DNA of 64,000 nucleotides, from NCBI RefSeq assembly GCF_029891575.1, contig NZ_JARZHF010000001.1, positions 620,001 to 684,000 of the forward strand. The letters are read 5' to 3'. A program made the position numbers and the translations under genes. Shown in pieces: positions 56,426 to 61,350 of the stretch. Below the pieces are notes generated by a model that made no database searches, had not been told where the DNA came from, and was given only the letters and a program-made list of their open reading frames with translations. The stretch is from Salipaludibacillus daqingensis. GTDB lineage: Bacteria; Bacillota; Bacilli; Bacillales; Salisediminibacteriaceae. Numbering within the stretch: position 1 is the first letter of the stretch; each line of letters opens with the position of its first letter.

Positions 56426-58441
56426 TTAGCTCGCTGAATCTCTCATTGCTCCTTTTTGAAGCTGATACATATGGTAGTATCGTCCAGATAAACTCATTAA
56501 TTGTTCGTGATTTCCTTGTTCCACAATTTCTCCTTTGTTTAGAACAAGAATGTTATCTGCTTGGCGTATCGTCGATAACCGGTGGGCAATCACAAATGTC
56601 GTTCGCCCTTCTTTCACAACTGCCAATGCACGTTGAATCACTTCTTCCGTTTCTGTATCAATATTTGCCGTCGCTTCATCCAGAATTAAGATAGCCGGAT
56701 CAAATACTAACGCTCTTGCGAAGGAAATTAATTGTCTTTGTCCAGCAGACAACGTACTTCCCTTTTCTTTCACCTCTTCATCTATACCGTTTGGCAGTGT
56801 TCGTAGCAAATCATTGGCTCCAACCTTCTCTAATGCTTCCATTATCTGCTCTCTCGTAATAGAAGGATCGTTCATACTGACGTTGCTTGCAATTGTTCCA
56901 GTAAAAAGAAATGGGTCTTGAAGAACAATCGCCATATGTTCCCGCAGCTCTTGTTTCGTCATATTATGAATATCGATTCCATCTACCGTTACTTTACCGA
57001 TTTGGTGATCATAAAAACGAAATAAGACGTTCATAATCGAACTTTTTCCAGATCCCGTATGCCCAACAAACGCAATGGTTTCCCCTTTTTTAGCAGAAAA
57101 TGAAATATTTTTTAGCACATACTGATCTTCTTCATAAGCAAAAGAAACGTTGTCAAATGTCACATCTCCATGAAATCGTGGTCGATGTCCCTCCTGTAAG
57201 GCTATTCCTGGCTCATCAATTAACGAGAAGACTCTTTCCCCGGCAATACGAGCTTCCTCTAACTGCGCCAGCTGATTGACAATTCCGTTGACTGGTTCAA
57301 ACAATCTATTCATGTAGTCAACAAATGCATACACAACACCGAGACTAAATACAGTGCCAACCCCAATTGATCCCCCACCGAAATACCAAATCAACACAAC
57401 GAATGCAACGTTACGGAACAAGTTAATTAAATTAAATGACGTCATCGCATTTAGTGTAAGCATTTTATTATTATATTTAAAATGCTCTTTATTTAGTGCT
57501 TCAAACTCTTCCGACACTTCTTTTTCTCGACCAAATGCTTGCACAATTGGCATCCCTTGAATATTTTCATTGATACGCCCATTGATATCACTTAATTTCT
57601 CACGGATAACTCGATTGTATTTTCCCGCGAATTTTCGATATACAATCATCCAAATAATTAGGATCGGTACAAGGATGAGTGTTGCAAAAGCTAGTCTTGA
57701 ATCTAACAAGAATAATGCGATAAATATTCCAATCATATAAACGATACTCGTAAAAAAGGTGGCTAACACTCTTACATACAGTTCTCGTATTGCTTCTGTA
57801 TCATTTGTAATTCTTGAAACGATTTTCCCTGTTGGCAATCGATCAAAATAGTTTACCGGGAGCTCATGAACTTTCGCAAAAACATCTTCTCTCATTTTCT
57901 TGATAATTCGATTGGCTGAAGTTTGAAGCCAATAACTTTGATAATAATGAAAGAAAGCTGAGATGATAATCAAAAGCAAATAACCTCCCATGAGCAAGAA
58001 TAAATATGGAATTTCTTGTTGAAAAAACAAATAAATATCCGCTTGAGACATTTGGGATGCTTCATAGCTAGCTTGTTCATCCCCTCTTGTTATCATCAAC
58101 TCCCCTTCATGAAAAGAACGCTCCCCGTCAAATGGAATCATTCCGTCAACGAAATAATAGTTCAATCCAATTTGTAAAATGTTCACCTCATCACTCTTTG
58201 ACCAATCTATCTCCATTCGATCAGCTCGCACAAATTCTCTTCCAGCGTAAGTGACATCTCCTTCTTGTTGCTCTACCCAGGGCTGTTCAATCCCAATAAT
58301 ATGATTGTCAATCATCGTTTTTGCAATAAAAGGCCCTGTAAGTTCCGCTGCTGCTGCAATGGATAGGAACAACAAAGATAATAAAATCGTACGTTTAAAT
58401 TGCATGGCATAGTTAAAAAATCTTTTCCCAGTATGTTTCAT
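56426..58441 (-). CDS. bmrD: BmrD (YheH), larger half of a heterodimeric ABC drug exporter
   Basis: A 671-residue half-transporter. After the first membrane helix comes a long extracellular insertion (about residues 45-140), a BmrD hallmark. Five more helices and the nucleotide domain follow, with Walker A VGHTGSGKSS, signature LSAGQRQLISFARAL and Walker B AILILDEATANIDTE. The signature is LSAGQ, which belongs to the degenerate site, while Walker B keeps the catalytic Glu. The start at 58441 has GAGGAGGTG at 8 bases. It overlaps bmrC by 4 bases (ATGA). With BmrC it should pump drugs out of the cell. Confidence 0.93.
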   Translation of the reverse strand: MKHTGKRFFNYAMQFKRTILLSLLFLSIAAAAELTGPFIAKTMIDNHIIGIEQPWVEQQEGDVTYAGREFVRADRMEIDWSKSDEVNILQIGLNYYFVDGMIPFDGERSFHEGELMITRGDEQASYEASQMSQADIYLFFQQEIPYLFLLMGGYLLLIIISAFFHYYQSYWLQTSANRIIKKMREDVFAKVHELPVNYFDRLPTGKIVSRITNDTEAIRELYVRVLATFFTSIVYMIGIFIALFLLDSRLAFATLILVPILIIWMIVYRKFAGKYNRVIREKLSDINGRINENIQGMPIVQAFGREKEVSEEFEALNKEHFKYNNKMLTLNAMTSFNLINLFRNVAFVVLIWYFGGGSIGVGTVFSLGVVYAFVDYMNRLFEPVNGIVNQLAQLEEARIAGERVFSLIDEPGIALQEGHRPRFHGDVTFDNVSFAYEEDQYVLKNISFSAKKGETIAFVGHTGSGKSSIMNVLFRFYDHQIGKVTVDGIDIHNMTKQELREHMAIVLQDPFLFTGTIASNVSMNDPSITREQIMEALEKVGANDLLRTLPNGIDEEVKEKGSTLSAGQRQLISFARALVFDPAILILDEATANIDTETEEVIQRALAVVKEGRTTFVIAHRLSTIRQADNILVLNKGEIVEQGNHEQLMSLSGRYYHMYQLQKGAMRDSAS

Positions 58442-60201
58442 GAGGTATACACCTCCTCTTCCACTACCGCTTTTTCTAATTGTTGTTTTGCATATTGTTC
58501 TGCATACCAACCTTGATTTTCTATTAATTGTTCATGTGTACCTACTTCTTTTACAATCCCTTCATCCATCACCATGATGAGTTCTGCATGCCTCACAGCA
58601 GACATTCTATGAGCGGCAATAAAGGTTGTTTTTCCTAACCTTTCTTTACGAATATTTTTTACAATCGTTGCCTCTGTTTTCGCATCCACGGCAGACAAAG
58701 CATCGTCTAATAATAGAATTTCAGGATCTTTTATTAATGCTCTAGCTATAGCAATCCGTTGTTTCTGTCCACCTGATAACGACACACCTTTTTCACCAAC
58801 TAACGTTTCAATCCCATGCAAAAATGTCTCAATATCCGCGGTGATCGATGCTTGATCTAACACCTTTTGTAATTTGCAATCATCTGCGTTTGGATTTCCG
58901 AAGAGAATGTTTTCTCGGATCGTTTTTGAAAATAAAAACTGGTCTTGCGGAACATAACCAATCCATTTTTTAACCTCATGTAATGCAATATCTTCTATCG
59001 GAATTTCTGAAATGAAGATGCTTTTTCTCTCAATCGGATACTCTCTTAATAACTGTTTGAAAAAGGTCGTTTTCCCGCTTCCAGTTTTCCCCACAACGCC
59101 TACGCTATAGCCTTTAGGTATATGAACTGTAACATTTTTAAGAACTTGTTCCTTCGCTGACGGGTACTGAAATGATAAATCATGAATCTCAATCGTTTCA
59201 GGCAAAAATCTTTTTTCGGTACTTTCTTCATTTTTCACATCTTCTTGATAGCGGAATGTTTCATTCAAACGATCCATCGAAGCATTTCCTCGCTGCATCA
59301 CATTCATTAATTCACCAAATGCAAACATTGGCCAAATTAACATACCTAAATAGATGTTAAAAGAAACTAATTGCCCTAACGTTATTTCGCTACGAAAAAC
59401 TAGAAAAGCGCCGTATCCAAGGCCAATCATATAACTTAATCCAACTAAAATTTTAATTGTTGGTTCAAATAACGCATCGATCTTCGCTACTTGAATATTC
59501 TTATCTAATACATCTTGCGTGATCCCATTAAAACGTTGCTGATCATCCTTCTCCTTCACAAAGGCACGAATGACTCTTATACCTGAGATCGATTCAAGGA
59601 CTTGATCATTCAAATCACCGAAAGCATTTTGTGCATTCATAAAACGTTCATGAATGATCTTTCCATACCTTTTCATCAACCAAGCCATGATTGGTAATGG
59701 TAAAAAAGCGGCAATTGTTAGCTTCCAGCTAACGAGAAAACCCATCATAAATAAAATGATGACTAAAAACACCGTCGCATCTACAAGCGTTAATACACCA
59801 AATCCTGTAGTCAGTGAAATAGCTTTTAAATCATTTGTCGCTTTCGCCATTAAATCGCCTGTCTTATTTTTTTCATAAAACGTTGGCGTCATTTTCATTA
59901 AATGATTCATATACTTTGACCTTAGCGTTCGCTCAATGATAAAAGCTCCTCCAAATAATTTTCTCATCCATATATACGTAATAATATAGATTGCTACCAT
60001 GAGAATGATAAACAACATAATATATTGTCTAAGTCCTTCTTCCGTTAACCTACCTTGATGAACGTCATCAATGACGATTCCTAATAGGCGTGGAGGAAGA
60101 ACTTCTAAAAAGCTCGCAATAATTAATAAACTTATCGCAATCATATATCGTTTTTTATGTTCCTTAAAAAACCATGTTAATTTCTTTAAAACGGAAAACA
60201 T
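58438..60201 (-). CDS. bmrC: BmrC (YheI), smaller half of a heterodimeric ABC drug exporter
   Basis: A 587-residue half-transporter: six membrane helices (first two near 19-39 and 60-80), then the nucleotide domain with Walker A VGKTGSGKTTFF, signature LSGGQKQRIAIARAL and Walker B EILLLDDALSAVDAKTE. The residue after the Walker B aspartate is Asp instead of catalytic Glu, the known degenerate site of BmrC. The complex should work asymmetrically, hydrolysing ATP mainly at the intact site. The region upstream contains a leader peptide and terminator hairpins that probably control expression, as for B. subtilis bmrCD. Confidence 0.93.
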   Translation of the reverse strand: MFSVLKKLTWFFKEHKKRYMIAISLLIIASFLEVLPPRLLGIVIDDVHQGRLTEEGLRQYIMLFIILMVAIYIITYIWMRKLFGGAFIIERTLRSKYMNHLMKMTPTFYEKNKTGDLMAKATNDLKAISLTTGFGVLTLVDATVFLVIILFMMGFLVSWKLTIAAFLPLPIMAWLMKRYGKIIHERFMNAQNAFGDLNDQVLESISGIRVIRAFVKEKDDQQRFNGITQDVLDKNIQVAKIDALFEPTIKILVGLSYMIGLGYGAFLVFRSEITLGQLVSFNIYLGMLIWPMFAFGELMNVMQRGNASMDRLNETFRYQEDVKNEESTEKRFLPETIEIHDLSFQYPSAKEQVLKNVTVHIPKGYSVGVVGKTGSGKTTFFKQLLREYPIERKSIFISEIPIEDIALHEVKKWIGYVPQDQFLFSKTIRENILFGNPNADDCKLQKVLDQASITADIETFLHGIETLVGEKGVSLSGGQKQRIAIARALIKDPEILLLDDALSAVDAKTEATIVKNIRKERLGKTTFIAAHRMSAVRHAELIMVMDEGIVKEVGTHEQLIENQGWYAEQYAKQQLEKAVVEEEVYTS

Positions 60202-60240: not shown

Positions 60241-60306
60241 CTAACCGCCACCTGTCGTTTCCTCCTTTGACGTTCTCCTTTTACTAATAAACTTTGTCAC
60301 TAACAT
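60241..60306 (-). CDS. Short frame (21 codons) just upstream of bmrC
   Basis: ATG 60306 with GGAGGG 6 bases upstream opens a 21-residue frame, MLVTKFISKRRTSKEE followed by a threonine/glycine tail, ending 39 bases before bmrC. The peptide is basic and hydrophilic. It may be a second leader peptide coupling translation into bmrC, whose own ribosome binding site is modest. No homology is known to me. Confidence 0.4.
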   Translation of the reverse strand: MLVTKFISKRRTSKEETTGGG

Positions 60307-60354
60307 GTTCATCCCTCCAAAAATTTTTATGTGATCAGCATAAGCTGGTAACAC

Positions 60355-60388
60355 CAAAAATGCGCATGAGTAGTGTACTCATGCGCAT
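60355..60388 (-). terminator. Strong attenuator-type terminator in the bmrC leader
   Basis: ATGCGCATGAGTA pairs perfectly with TACTCATGCGCAT (13 bp, 3-base loop); on the minus strand the stem runs into TTTTT. It stands between the leader peptide gene and bmrC, so it must be passed or disabled for bmrCD expression. Confidence 0.85.
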
Positions 60389-60429
60389 CATCAACTGCAT
60401 TATATGTTAAATTTTTACAGTTAAATGGA

Positions 60430-60465
60430 ATAAAAAACACATGGTTCACGTATCTCCATGTGTGT
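60430..60465 (-). terminator. First terminator-like hairpin in the bmrC leader
   Basis: ACACATGG pairs with CCATGTGT (8 bp) around an 11-base loop and is followed on the minus strand by TTTTTT. It lies about 35 bases after the leader peptide stop codon. Confidence 0.7.
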
Positions 60466-60495
60466 CGATGACATCTATCATTATCCATTAAAATA

Positions 60496-60512
60496 AGACA
60501 TTATAAATGTCT
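60496..60512 (-). other. Small hairpin covering the leader peptide stop codon
   Basis: AGACAT and ATGTCT form a 6 bp stem whose loop contains the leader peptide stop codon (TAA, 60501-60503). A ribosome paused at the end of the leader frame would melt it. Confidence 0.5.
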
Positions 60513-60593
60513 CATAAGCGAGGCGTCTGAAAACACAGCATGGTTTATTCTGGCATATTCAGTTGTTTGGTTAAATTGAATGACCTTTTTCAT
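60501..60593 (-). CDS. bmrB: Leader peptide of the bmrCD operon (BmrB-like, 30 residues)
   Basis: A 30-codon frame from ATG 60593, with AAAGGAGG 8 bases upstream, one of the best binding sites in the window. The peptide starts MKKVIQFNQTTEYARINHA. It lies between a strong promoter and two terminator hairpins in front of bmrC. In B. subtilis bmrB (53 codons) occupies this position and controls bmrCD by ribosome-mediated transcription attenuation. The sequence here is shorter and I cannot claim direct homology; the name marks position and likely role. Confidence 0.65.
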   Translation of the reverse strand: MKKVIQFNQTTEYARINHAVFSDASLMRHL

Positions 60594-60637
60594 GTTGTTC
60601 GCCTCCTTTTTGAATTTTTTGATAACTTCCAATATTT

Positions 60638-60667
60638 ATCATAGCACTGGACCAAAGATACCGTCAA
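60638..60667 (-). promoter_or_regulatory. Promoter of the bmr leader and bmrCD
   Basis: On the minus strand TTGACG (60662-60667) and TATGAT (60638-60643) are spaced by 18 bases, and TGC before the -10 makes it an extended -10 promoter. Transcription would start near 60631, about 38 bases before the leader peptide. Confidence 0.7.
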
Positions 60668-60741: not shown

Positions 60742-61350
60742 TTAGATCATTTTCAATCGTATCCCCCATTCGAACCATTGGTGATTTTTTTTGATATTTA
60801 ATTTCTTACGAATATTTCTACGATGGTTTTCCACCGTTTTAGGTGAGATATTCAACAACCTTGCAGAATCAACCACTGAGTATCCTCTAATCTTCATCAT
60901 GAGAATTTCTTCTTCTCGTTTCGTCAAATTTGTCGGTAGCGCTTCTTCTGGTAAGTCATCACCATATAAGCGTAGAATAGTTTTCTCCCCTTTTAGCACT
61001 TGTTGAAAGAAAACCATTAGGTCATTTAAAGGGGCTTGTTCATAAAAAAGAGCTTGTAATTTCCCTTGCTTTACCATCTTTTCCAGTTCTTTTGACCGAC
61101 AAGAATACATCATTACTCTATTTGAAGACTTTGGTTGATTTTCCATCAGTTTAACAACACTACCAATTCCTCCAGCGTTTGCTAGTCGTTCATCAATGAC
61201 AATTAAGTCAAAAGTATATTGCTTTAGTGAGTGGACAAGTTCACTTGCTGTTTCTGCCAAAACCATTGAATCGATAGAGTGTACATCTTTTATTAACTGA
61301 ATTAATCCATAACGAAGCAGTTCATGATCCATTCCTATTAACACTCTCAT
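60742..61350 (-). CDS. LuxR/NarL-type response regulator with a degenerate receiver
   Basis: A 202-residue regulator. The C-terminal helix-turn-helix (LTKREEEILMMKIRGYSVVDSARLLNISPKTVENHRRNIRKKLNI, about 139-185) is a clear LuxR/NarL domain. The receiver has Asp53 (VIDERLAN), but the acidic pair is Met7-Asp8 and the conserved lysine near residue 105 appears to be Glu, so phosphorylation is doubtful. ATG 61350 follows AAGGAG by 6 bases; the longer frame to 61482 is rejected. No histidine kinase is adjacent. It is divergent from cydAB, which it may regulate. Confidence 0.8.
   Translation of the reverse strand: MRVLIGMDHELLRYGLIQLIKDVHSIDSMVLAETASELVHSLKQYTFDLIVIDERLANAGGIGSVVKLMENQPKSSNRVMMYSCRSKELEKMVKQGKLQALFYEQAPLNDLMVFFQQVLKGEKTILRLYGDDLPEEALPTNLTKREEEILMMKIRGYSVVDSARLLNISPKTVENHRRNIRKKLNIKKNHQWFEWGIRLKMI

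Follow-up and report, generated by a model that had tools for sequence, protein, structure and literature searches.

The DNA analysed here, called the window, is a stretch of 64,000 nucleotides from Salipaludibacillus daqingensis, taken from a genome of 4.58 Mb in 27 contigs; positions are counted from its first letter. On its minus strand it carries two genes whose products find their top matches among solved structures (PDB) in the two halves of a Bacillus subtilis pump, YheI/BmrC (784 bits, with the next different protein at 411) and YheH/BmrD (852 bits vs. 489). Judged by these matches, the genes following the leader are orthologs of B. subtilis bmrC and bmrD, and the placement of the leader ahead of bmrCD in a first-pass annotation of this DNA holds. 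By BmrC, the closest named relatives are Salipaludibacillus species (79-86% identity). The features of the locus, in the order of transcription, are the following:

60638..60667, minus strand: promoter-like site, -35 TTGACG, 18 nt, TG-N-TATGAT (direct reading and pattern scan)
60501..60593, minus strand: leader ORF 1 (bmrB-like), 30 codons, MKKVIQFNQTTEYARINHAVFSDASLMRHL, SD AAGGAGG (direct reading)
60531..60544, minus strand: predicted antiterminator 5' strand, ACCATGCTGTGTTT, about codons 17-21 of the leader (duplex prediction)
60493..60515, minus strand: 10-bp hairpin over the leader stop codon (direct reading and folding)
60456..60467, minus strand: predicted antiterminator 3' strand, the T1 5' arm region, CGACACACATGG (duplex prediction)
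60432..60463, minus strand: terminator T1 with T6 (direct reading, scan and folding)
60356..60389, minus strand: terminator T2, 13-14 bp, T5 (scan and pairing tests)
60241..60306, minus strand: sORF2, 21 codons, MLVTKFISKRRTSKEETTGGG, stop TAG, SD GGAGGG, C-terminal motif [DEG]-[GS]-G-stop (conservation)
58438..60201, minus strand: bmrC (yheI ortholog, by orthology)
56426..58441, minus strand: bmrD (yheH ortholog, by orthology; a longer start gives 56426-58510)

Upstream of the leader lies an orphan LuxR-type regulator gene (60742..61350, minus strand), whose receiver domain scores 28.6 bits, below the Pfam cut-off of 30.2; a similar LuxR-type C-terminal fragment was seen by eye upstream of bmrC at locus L043.

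Most elements named in the first-pass annotation were found where it had read them: the promoter-like site (60667..60638) with TG before its -10, the 30-codon frame with a near-perfect ribosome binding site (60593..60501, starting at the ATG at 60593 and preceded by AAGGAGG), a first hairpin with T6 (T1) and a second 13-bp hairpin with T5 (T2). The hairpin described as holding the stop codon in its loop is also present, but the TAA spans the loop and the 3' stem. T1 (hairpin 60463..60437, T6 at 60437-60432) is a modest terminator of about -9 kcal/mol in the terminator scan and was missed by a first pattern scan because its loop of 11 exceeded the limit of 8, whereas T2 (hairpin 60389..60359, followed by T5) is strong, about -21 kcal/mol, and was the sole terminator flagged by that first scan (0.5 expected). 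The region from 60340 to 60630 folds at -74.6 kcal/mol vs. -55 ± 4.6 in shuffles (z -4.26), and none of the 200 shuffles was as good. Rfam covariance models gave no match at E ≤ 1 between 50000 and 64000, and the small ORFs of the window had no match in Pfam or NCBIfam. A second ORF with its own SD, at 60306..60241, had been overlooked in the earlier reading of these same coordinates.

Recurrence of these elements was assessed at BmrC homologs from named contigs and further genomes, taken with their upstream stretches. The genomes compared were selected, with about one or two for each genus that had listed positions and, in addition, the genus of B. subtilis; 194 loci were kept once duplicates and two paralogs had been taken out. 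The comparison left out a pump gene of 45% identity from elsewhere in the source genome. At the second BmrC-like gene of that genome (L002, G000:C12:101050-102771), no preceding sORF2 appears in the small-ORF listing. A mechanical scan of the leader zone for ATG ORFs of 18-40 codons with a strong SD returned a leader ORF in 172 of the 194 loci, with a choice that was wrong by eye in some of them (e.g., L203). Terminators numbered one in 73 loci, two in 77, three in 12 and four in 1, with none in 14; in this census, 17 of the 194 loci had no leader by a slightly looser rule. At least two terminators, found in 90/194 loci, are thus common and not universal. A leader ORF together with a terminator is thus recurrent among the relatives. 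An alternative in which the hairpins do no more than terminate the luxR-type gene upstream, with ORFs present by chance, would fit the position of the region between two genes and the fact that promoter-like sites, taken as a class, are no more frequent there than by chance (3 vs. 4.6 in shuffles by pattern scan). Against this, most of the 194 loci share the leader ORF, the terminators and sORF2, and the pairing of T1 described below exceeds both shuffles and cross-species controls; we consider a chance origin scarcely credible.

Alternative pairing was modelled between the T1 5' arm and the leader ORF, with 100 dinucleotide shuffles as reference, at the 159 loci with both a leader and T1 (35 dropped). 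In the window, codons 17-21 of the leader pair with the T1 5' arm region at -13.4 kcal/mol (p 0.01, z -3.96), which gives an antiterminator exclusive with the terminator and with one strand inside the leader ORF. Among the 159 loci, this pairing reached p ≤ 0.05 in 60 (about 8 expected) and p ≤ 0.01 in 28, with a median z of -1.33, and was not significant by the shuffle test in 99, among them L186-L196 of the B. subtilis clade. In the cross-species control, a locus's own pairing between T1 and leader ranked in the top 5% at 24 of 88 loci (27%). Matching changes on the two strands were found across species, such as CGTGACC/GGTCACG (L064), GCAGCC with GCATGCTGC (L094) and TACCTGTACC/GGTACAGGT (L182). 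In the 60 significant loci, the antiterminator strand begins at a mean distance of 50.4 nt from the leader start (sd 11.2), with 28.4 nt left to the leader stop (sd 8.9). The pairing of the leader frame with a terminator stem, which the first-pass annotation had suggested modelling, is thus predicted for T1.

When the window was folded with a ribosome placed at codons 2, 6, 10 or 13, the antiterminator was obtained, and with a ribosome at codons 16, 20, 25 or 30, T1. In the fold of the naked leader, the SD is paired with 60516-60525, 7 of the 14 bases of the antiterminator strand are tied up, and T1 forms. The same analysis in relatives gave a rough, not perfectly monotonic, switch in L009, L010 and L011, and the minimum-energy folds of L012, L030 and L013 showed T1 at every ribosome position tried, with no switch.

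Orthology of the pump genes, recurrence of leader and terminators, and the antiterminator between leader and T1 together support the architecture of ribosome-mediated attenuation that had been proposed, with attenuation at T1. A short leader ORF with an SD ahead of a terminator is also what a bmrB-type attenuator has, and we regard it as likely that the locus is a ribosome-mediated transcription attenuator of this type accompanied by a second conserved mini-ORF. In the modelled scheme, the leader is probably an RNA switch by which the poisoning of ribosomes leads to expression of a multidrug pump. Without a ribosome, the upstream fold (SD GGAGGCG with CGCCTC) would tie up about half of the antiterminator strand, and T1 would form. 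A freely translating ribosome beyond about codon 14 would cover or have passed this strand, and T1 would form as well. If a drug slows or stalls the ribosome at about codons 2-13, the ribosome would break the upstream fold while codons 17-21 stay available for pairing with the T1 5' arm, and RNA polymerase would then read on. T2 would act as a passive brake.

The first-pass annotation had also suggested checking conservation of the 30-residue frame, and no coding-type substitution pattern was seen for this frame in relatives. Over 48 close, overlapping pairs, substitutions in leader ORF 1 numbered 166, 133 and 116 at codon positions 1, 2 and 3; because third-position changes are not in excess, these counts do not show selection on the whole leader peptide. 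If the leader senses ribosome position in general, its peptide need not be selected. The pair Val-Thr, common in leader peptides, uses GTG for Val in 52/66 cases and ACC for Thr in 42/66, as expected if the RNA is selected. The motif [QK][LF][NH], which lies just before the antiterminator strand, occurs in 64 of the 172 leaders vs. a shuffle mean of 9.6; its Leu codons are mixed, its Asn codon is nearly always AAT, and the motif looks to be kept at the peptide level. Leaders L060, L073 and L111 are examples.

The two stacked terminators had been taken to suggest a tighter or two-step switch. The pairing tests did not favour this: no antiterminator partner for the T2 5' arm was found in the leader by the shuffle test at 87 loci, with p ≤ 0.05 in 1/87 and p ≤ 0.01 in 0/87 (median z +0.53). 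A two-step switch in which the leader controls both terminators, T2 through a cascade where the freed 3' arm of T1 blocks it, would agree with the presence of at least two terminators by scan in those 90 loci and with the 7 bp that are possible in the window between the T1 3' arm and the 5' arm of T2 (-9.1 kcal/mol). Nevertheless, a locus's own pairing of these two arms ranked in the top 5% in 5/88 loci, which is the chance level, the rank of the window itself was 0.44, and both the leader (3/88) and the T1-T2 spacer (2/88) did no better with T2 in the same control. Thus, a two-step switch appears unlikely.

sORF2 sits after both terminators and just before bmrC. As an earlier selection had favoured Gly-ending ORFs by design, the counts given here use a blind rule, which takes the best-SD ATG or GTG ORF starting between -160 and -55 from bmrC and ignores its end, together with a thinned set. 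Blind picks were obtained in 167 of the 194 loci and none in 27. The last residue is Gly in 149 of the 167 picks (18 end otherwise), with G or S at -2 in 141 and D or E at -3 in 127; the stop is TAG in 125 and the length 17-21 codons in 130. The complete motif is [DE][GS]G in 117/167 and [DEG][GS]G in 134/167, the copy in the window (GGG) being of the second kind. These counts treat as misses four picks in the wrong frame in the B. subtilis clade (L188, L191, L192 and L194) and as a match the pick at L186, 17 codons in the wrong frame with a Gly end by chance. Three upstream control windows (39, 86 and 107 ORFs) had no such C-terminal or stop bias, and in the thinned set of 147 dissimilar loci a Gly end was found in 108/120 sORF2 vs. 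9/244 control ORFs and a TAG stop in 101/120 vs. 53/244. In the last three codons of the 149 Gly-ending picks, third positions carry 0.10, 0.57 and 0.37 bits vs. 0.83-2.0 for first and second positions, and Ser is encoded by AGY 60 times and by TCN 3 times. Over 92 close, overlapping pairs, substitutions numbered 296, 277 and 472 at codon positions 1, 2 and 3. As third positions vary most, the constraint on sORF2 falls on the end of the peptide, and TAG is preferred in addition. In having conserved residues adjacent to its stop codon, sORF2 resembles termination-arrest leader peptides such as TnaC and MsrDL.

B. subtilis also has an equivalent of sORF2, of 26 codons with a GTG start and the end EGG-TGA, and in its clade the stops are TGA or TAA. 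In an outgroup set of 29 loci, from which the mis-oriented L237 was left out, an sORF2-like ORF ending in NG, GG or SG was present in 5 of the 28 usable loci, all of family f49 (L261-L264, and L277 at 198 nt from bmrC). By eye, sORF2 was not seen in the other 23, many of which list a strong-SD ORF further upstream. As the outgroup mostly lacks it, sORF2 may have been added later to an attenuator that already existed. The strict motif pattern, which misses the window's own copy ending in GGG, was also run over 60 related genomes and gave 17 matches in 15 genomes, 7 of them just upstream of bmrC and all in frame. Of the other 10, two are clean in-frame ORFs, one at L225, where the longest ORF upstream seems by eye to be a lysyl-tRNA synthetase, and one at L230, before an ORF resembling by eye a prophage regulator, and eight are out of frame or hit a stop. 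A reversed control pattern gave 8 matches, so the other 10 were set aside as about background. In L259 and in outgroup-genus genomes whose open frames measure about 1283-1296 aa, bmrC and bmrD share one frame and are separated by a single TAG. Readthrough of this TAG was considered for L259 and dismissed, as it overlaps the TAGGAGG SD before the TTG start of bmrD and the arrangement looks ordinary.

What sORF2 does for bmrC is approached here from the position of its stop and the state of the bmrC SD. Once transcription has passed T1 and T2, ribosomes would translate sORF2 as far as [DEG][GS]G-stop and terminate there; the stop is mostly UAG and usually lies 16-57 nt upstream of bmrC, and a ribosome lingering at it would tune translation of bmrC or protect the mRNA. 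We favour the view that the fixed termination context matters and that sORF2 has a termination-linked role in bmrC expression. The mean match of the bmrC SD was 5.19 with sORF2 and 5.13 without it; as the SD is no weaker with sORF2, nothing in these figures shows that bmrC depends on it. An ermC-type translation attenuator, in which a stalled ribosome opens a hairpin hiding the bmrC SD, would suit the location of sORF2 directly ahead of bmrC, and transcription and translation attenuation are combined in B. subtilis vmlR (PMC9226507). It is nonetheless very unlikely here, as no RNA structure signal was found in 75 loci (every second of the 149), where the mean z was +0.28 and 1/75 fell below -2; the bmrC SD was about 50% unpaired on average in these loci, a figure that stands without a shuffled control.

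A role in reinitiation, by which terminating ribosomes would reach bmrC more easily with no sensing involved, draws on the distance between the sORF2 stop and the bmrC start, which is 16-57 nt in 147 of 149 loci, and on the proposal of leader-gene reinitiation for bacteria (PMC4833913). There, however, the peak for Firmicutes lies at 15-16 bp and is not very pronounced, whereas 105 of the 149 gaps here are of 28-45 nt; in addition, bmrC keeps its own SD, and the C-terminal motif and the TAG bias are left unexplained. Reinitiation is thus a possibility that we hold to be doubtful. A functional micropeptide, for example a partner of BmrCD, would account for the conservation of the sORF2 C-terminus at the peptide level, but residues 2-8 carry only 0.41-0.67 bits each and the sORF2 of the window has no Pfam or NCBIfam match, which makes it highly improbable.

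Returning to the termination-linked role, C-terminal Gly is described as enriched where apidaecin stalls ribosomes at stop codons, with stalling at UGA somewhat weaker than that at UAA or UAG (PMC7544508). Since sORF2 mostly keeps this context of Gly and UAG, release there may, by this analogy, be slow or sensitive, which is suggested and not demonstrated. Apidaecin arrest differs in being a genome-wide drug effect and not a property of a regulatory ORF, and any link to sORF2 is our own suggestion. A bolder form of the idea, that sORF2 is a second, separate sensor of translation termination with [DE][GS]G-UAG as a slow or drug-sensitive release site, dependent on RF1 and with Gly in the P site, seems to us rather unlikely. 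If true, the pump operon would have two gates, one at leader ORF 1 that responds to elongation stress and acts on transcription, the other at sORF2 that responds to termination stress and acts on translation or mRNA stability.

The comparison with B. subtilis bears on the reading frame of bmrB itself. Published bmrB (yheJ) is a GTG frame of 53 aa and 162 bp that ends 119 bp before bmrC (Reilman et al., 2014, PMC4191407). Genome G443, with YheI 100% identical over 204 residues, was taken as B. subtilis on this identity and because the bmrB geometry matches its locus L186. At L186, ggaaggaggg is followed by an ATG ORF of 23 codons, MPRNLRVYQTVSYWRGKPFVLFS, which overlaps the published GTG ORF in a different reading frame. 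This ATG frame and its GGAGGG SD are kept in 11/11 close genomes (L186-L196; 23-32 codons), whereas the GTG start is kept in 7/11 and the start plus the frame through the terminator in 5/11. On this comparison of sequences, the published 53-aa frame looks mis-assigned. The description of the B. subtilis bmrB peptide as different and longer in the first-pass annotation rests on the apparently mis-assigned frame. In the published account, a construct without translation had low, uninducible expression, in agreement with the scheme above, but four 5' UTR bases had also been changed in it to eliminate alternative starts or ribosome binding sites, so that it does not separate the GTG from the ATG frame (PMC4191407). 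An in-frame GFP fusion fluoresced on a plasmid and not on the chromosome, and the plasmid result speaks for some translation of the long frame. The reporter that showed the effect of lincomycin ended at bmrB (PMC4191407), so the transcriptional response does not require sORF2.

Among known systems, the B. subtilis bmrB attenuator shares with the window the orthologous pump genes, a promoter, a short ORF, an intrinsic terminator and alternative pairing, and requires translation (PMC4191407). It differs in that published bmrB has its terminator inside the ORF, whereas in the window the leader ORF stops short of T1, T1 is followed by another terminator, and sORF2 carries an ATG, a TAG and a clear SD; sORF2 is not mentioned in the consulted portion of that account. 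In the B. subtilis vmlR leader, stalling in an upstream ORF likewise prevents an anti-antiterminator, so that the antiterminator forms, but the gene (an ABCF factor) and the RNA are others, and NusG and (p)ppGpp are additional inputs (Takada et al., 2022, PMC9226507). In Streptococcus pneumoniae, a terminator upstream of patA limits transcription of an ABC multidrug pump operon, with no leader ORF mentioned in the abstract (Baylay and Piddock, 2014, PMC4319486). In titles and the opening lines of abstracts on bmrCD/bmrB, attenuators of Bacillales, double leaders, ribosome profiling and Term-seq, no sORF2 or corrected bmrB frame was recognised.

The multidrug exporter BmrCD has been studied before, and its leader has been reported as an example of drug-sensing attenuation. 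If the reading given here is right, the frame used for bmrB attenuation needs correcting, and the attenuator recurs through the sampled Bacillus relatives with a defined antiterminator. A conserved mini-ORF with a constant C-terminus then poses the question of what benefit a bacterium draws from keeping the termination context fixed just ahead of a gene for a drug pump.
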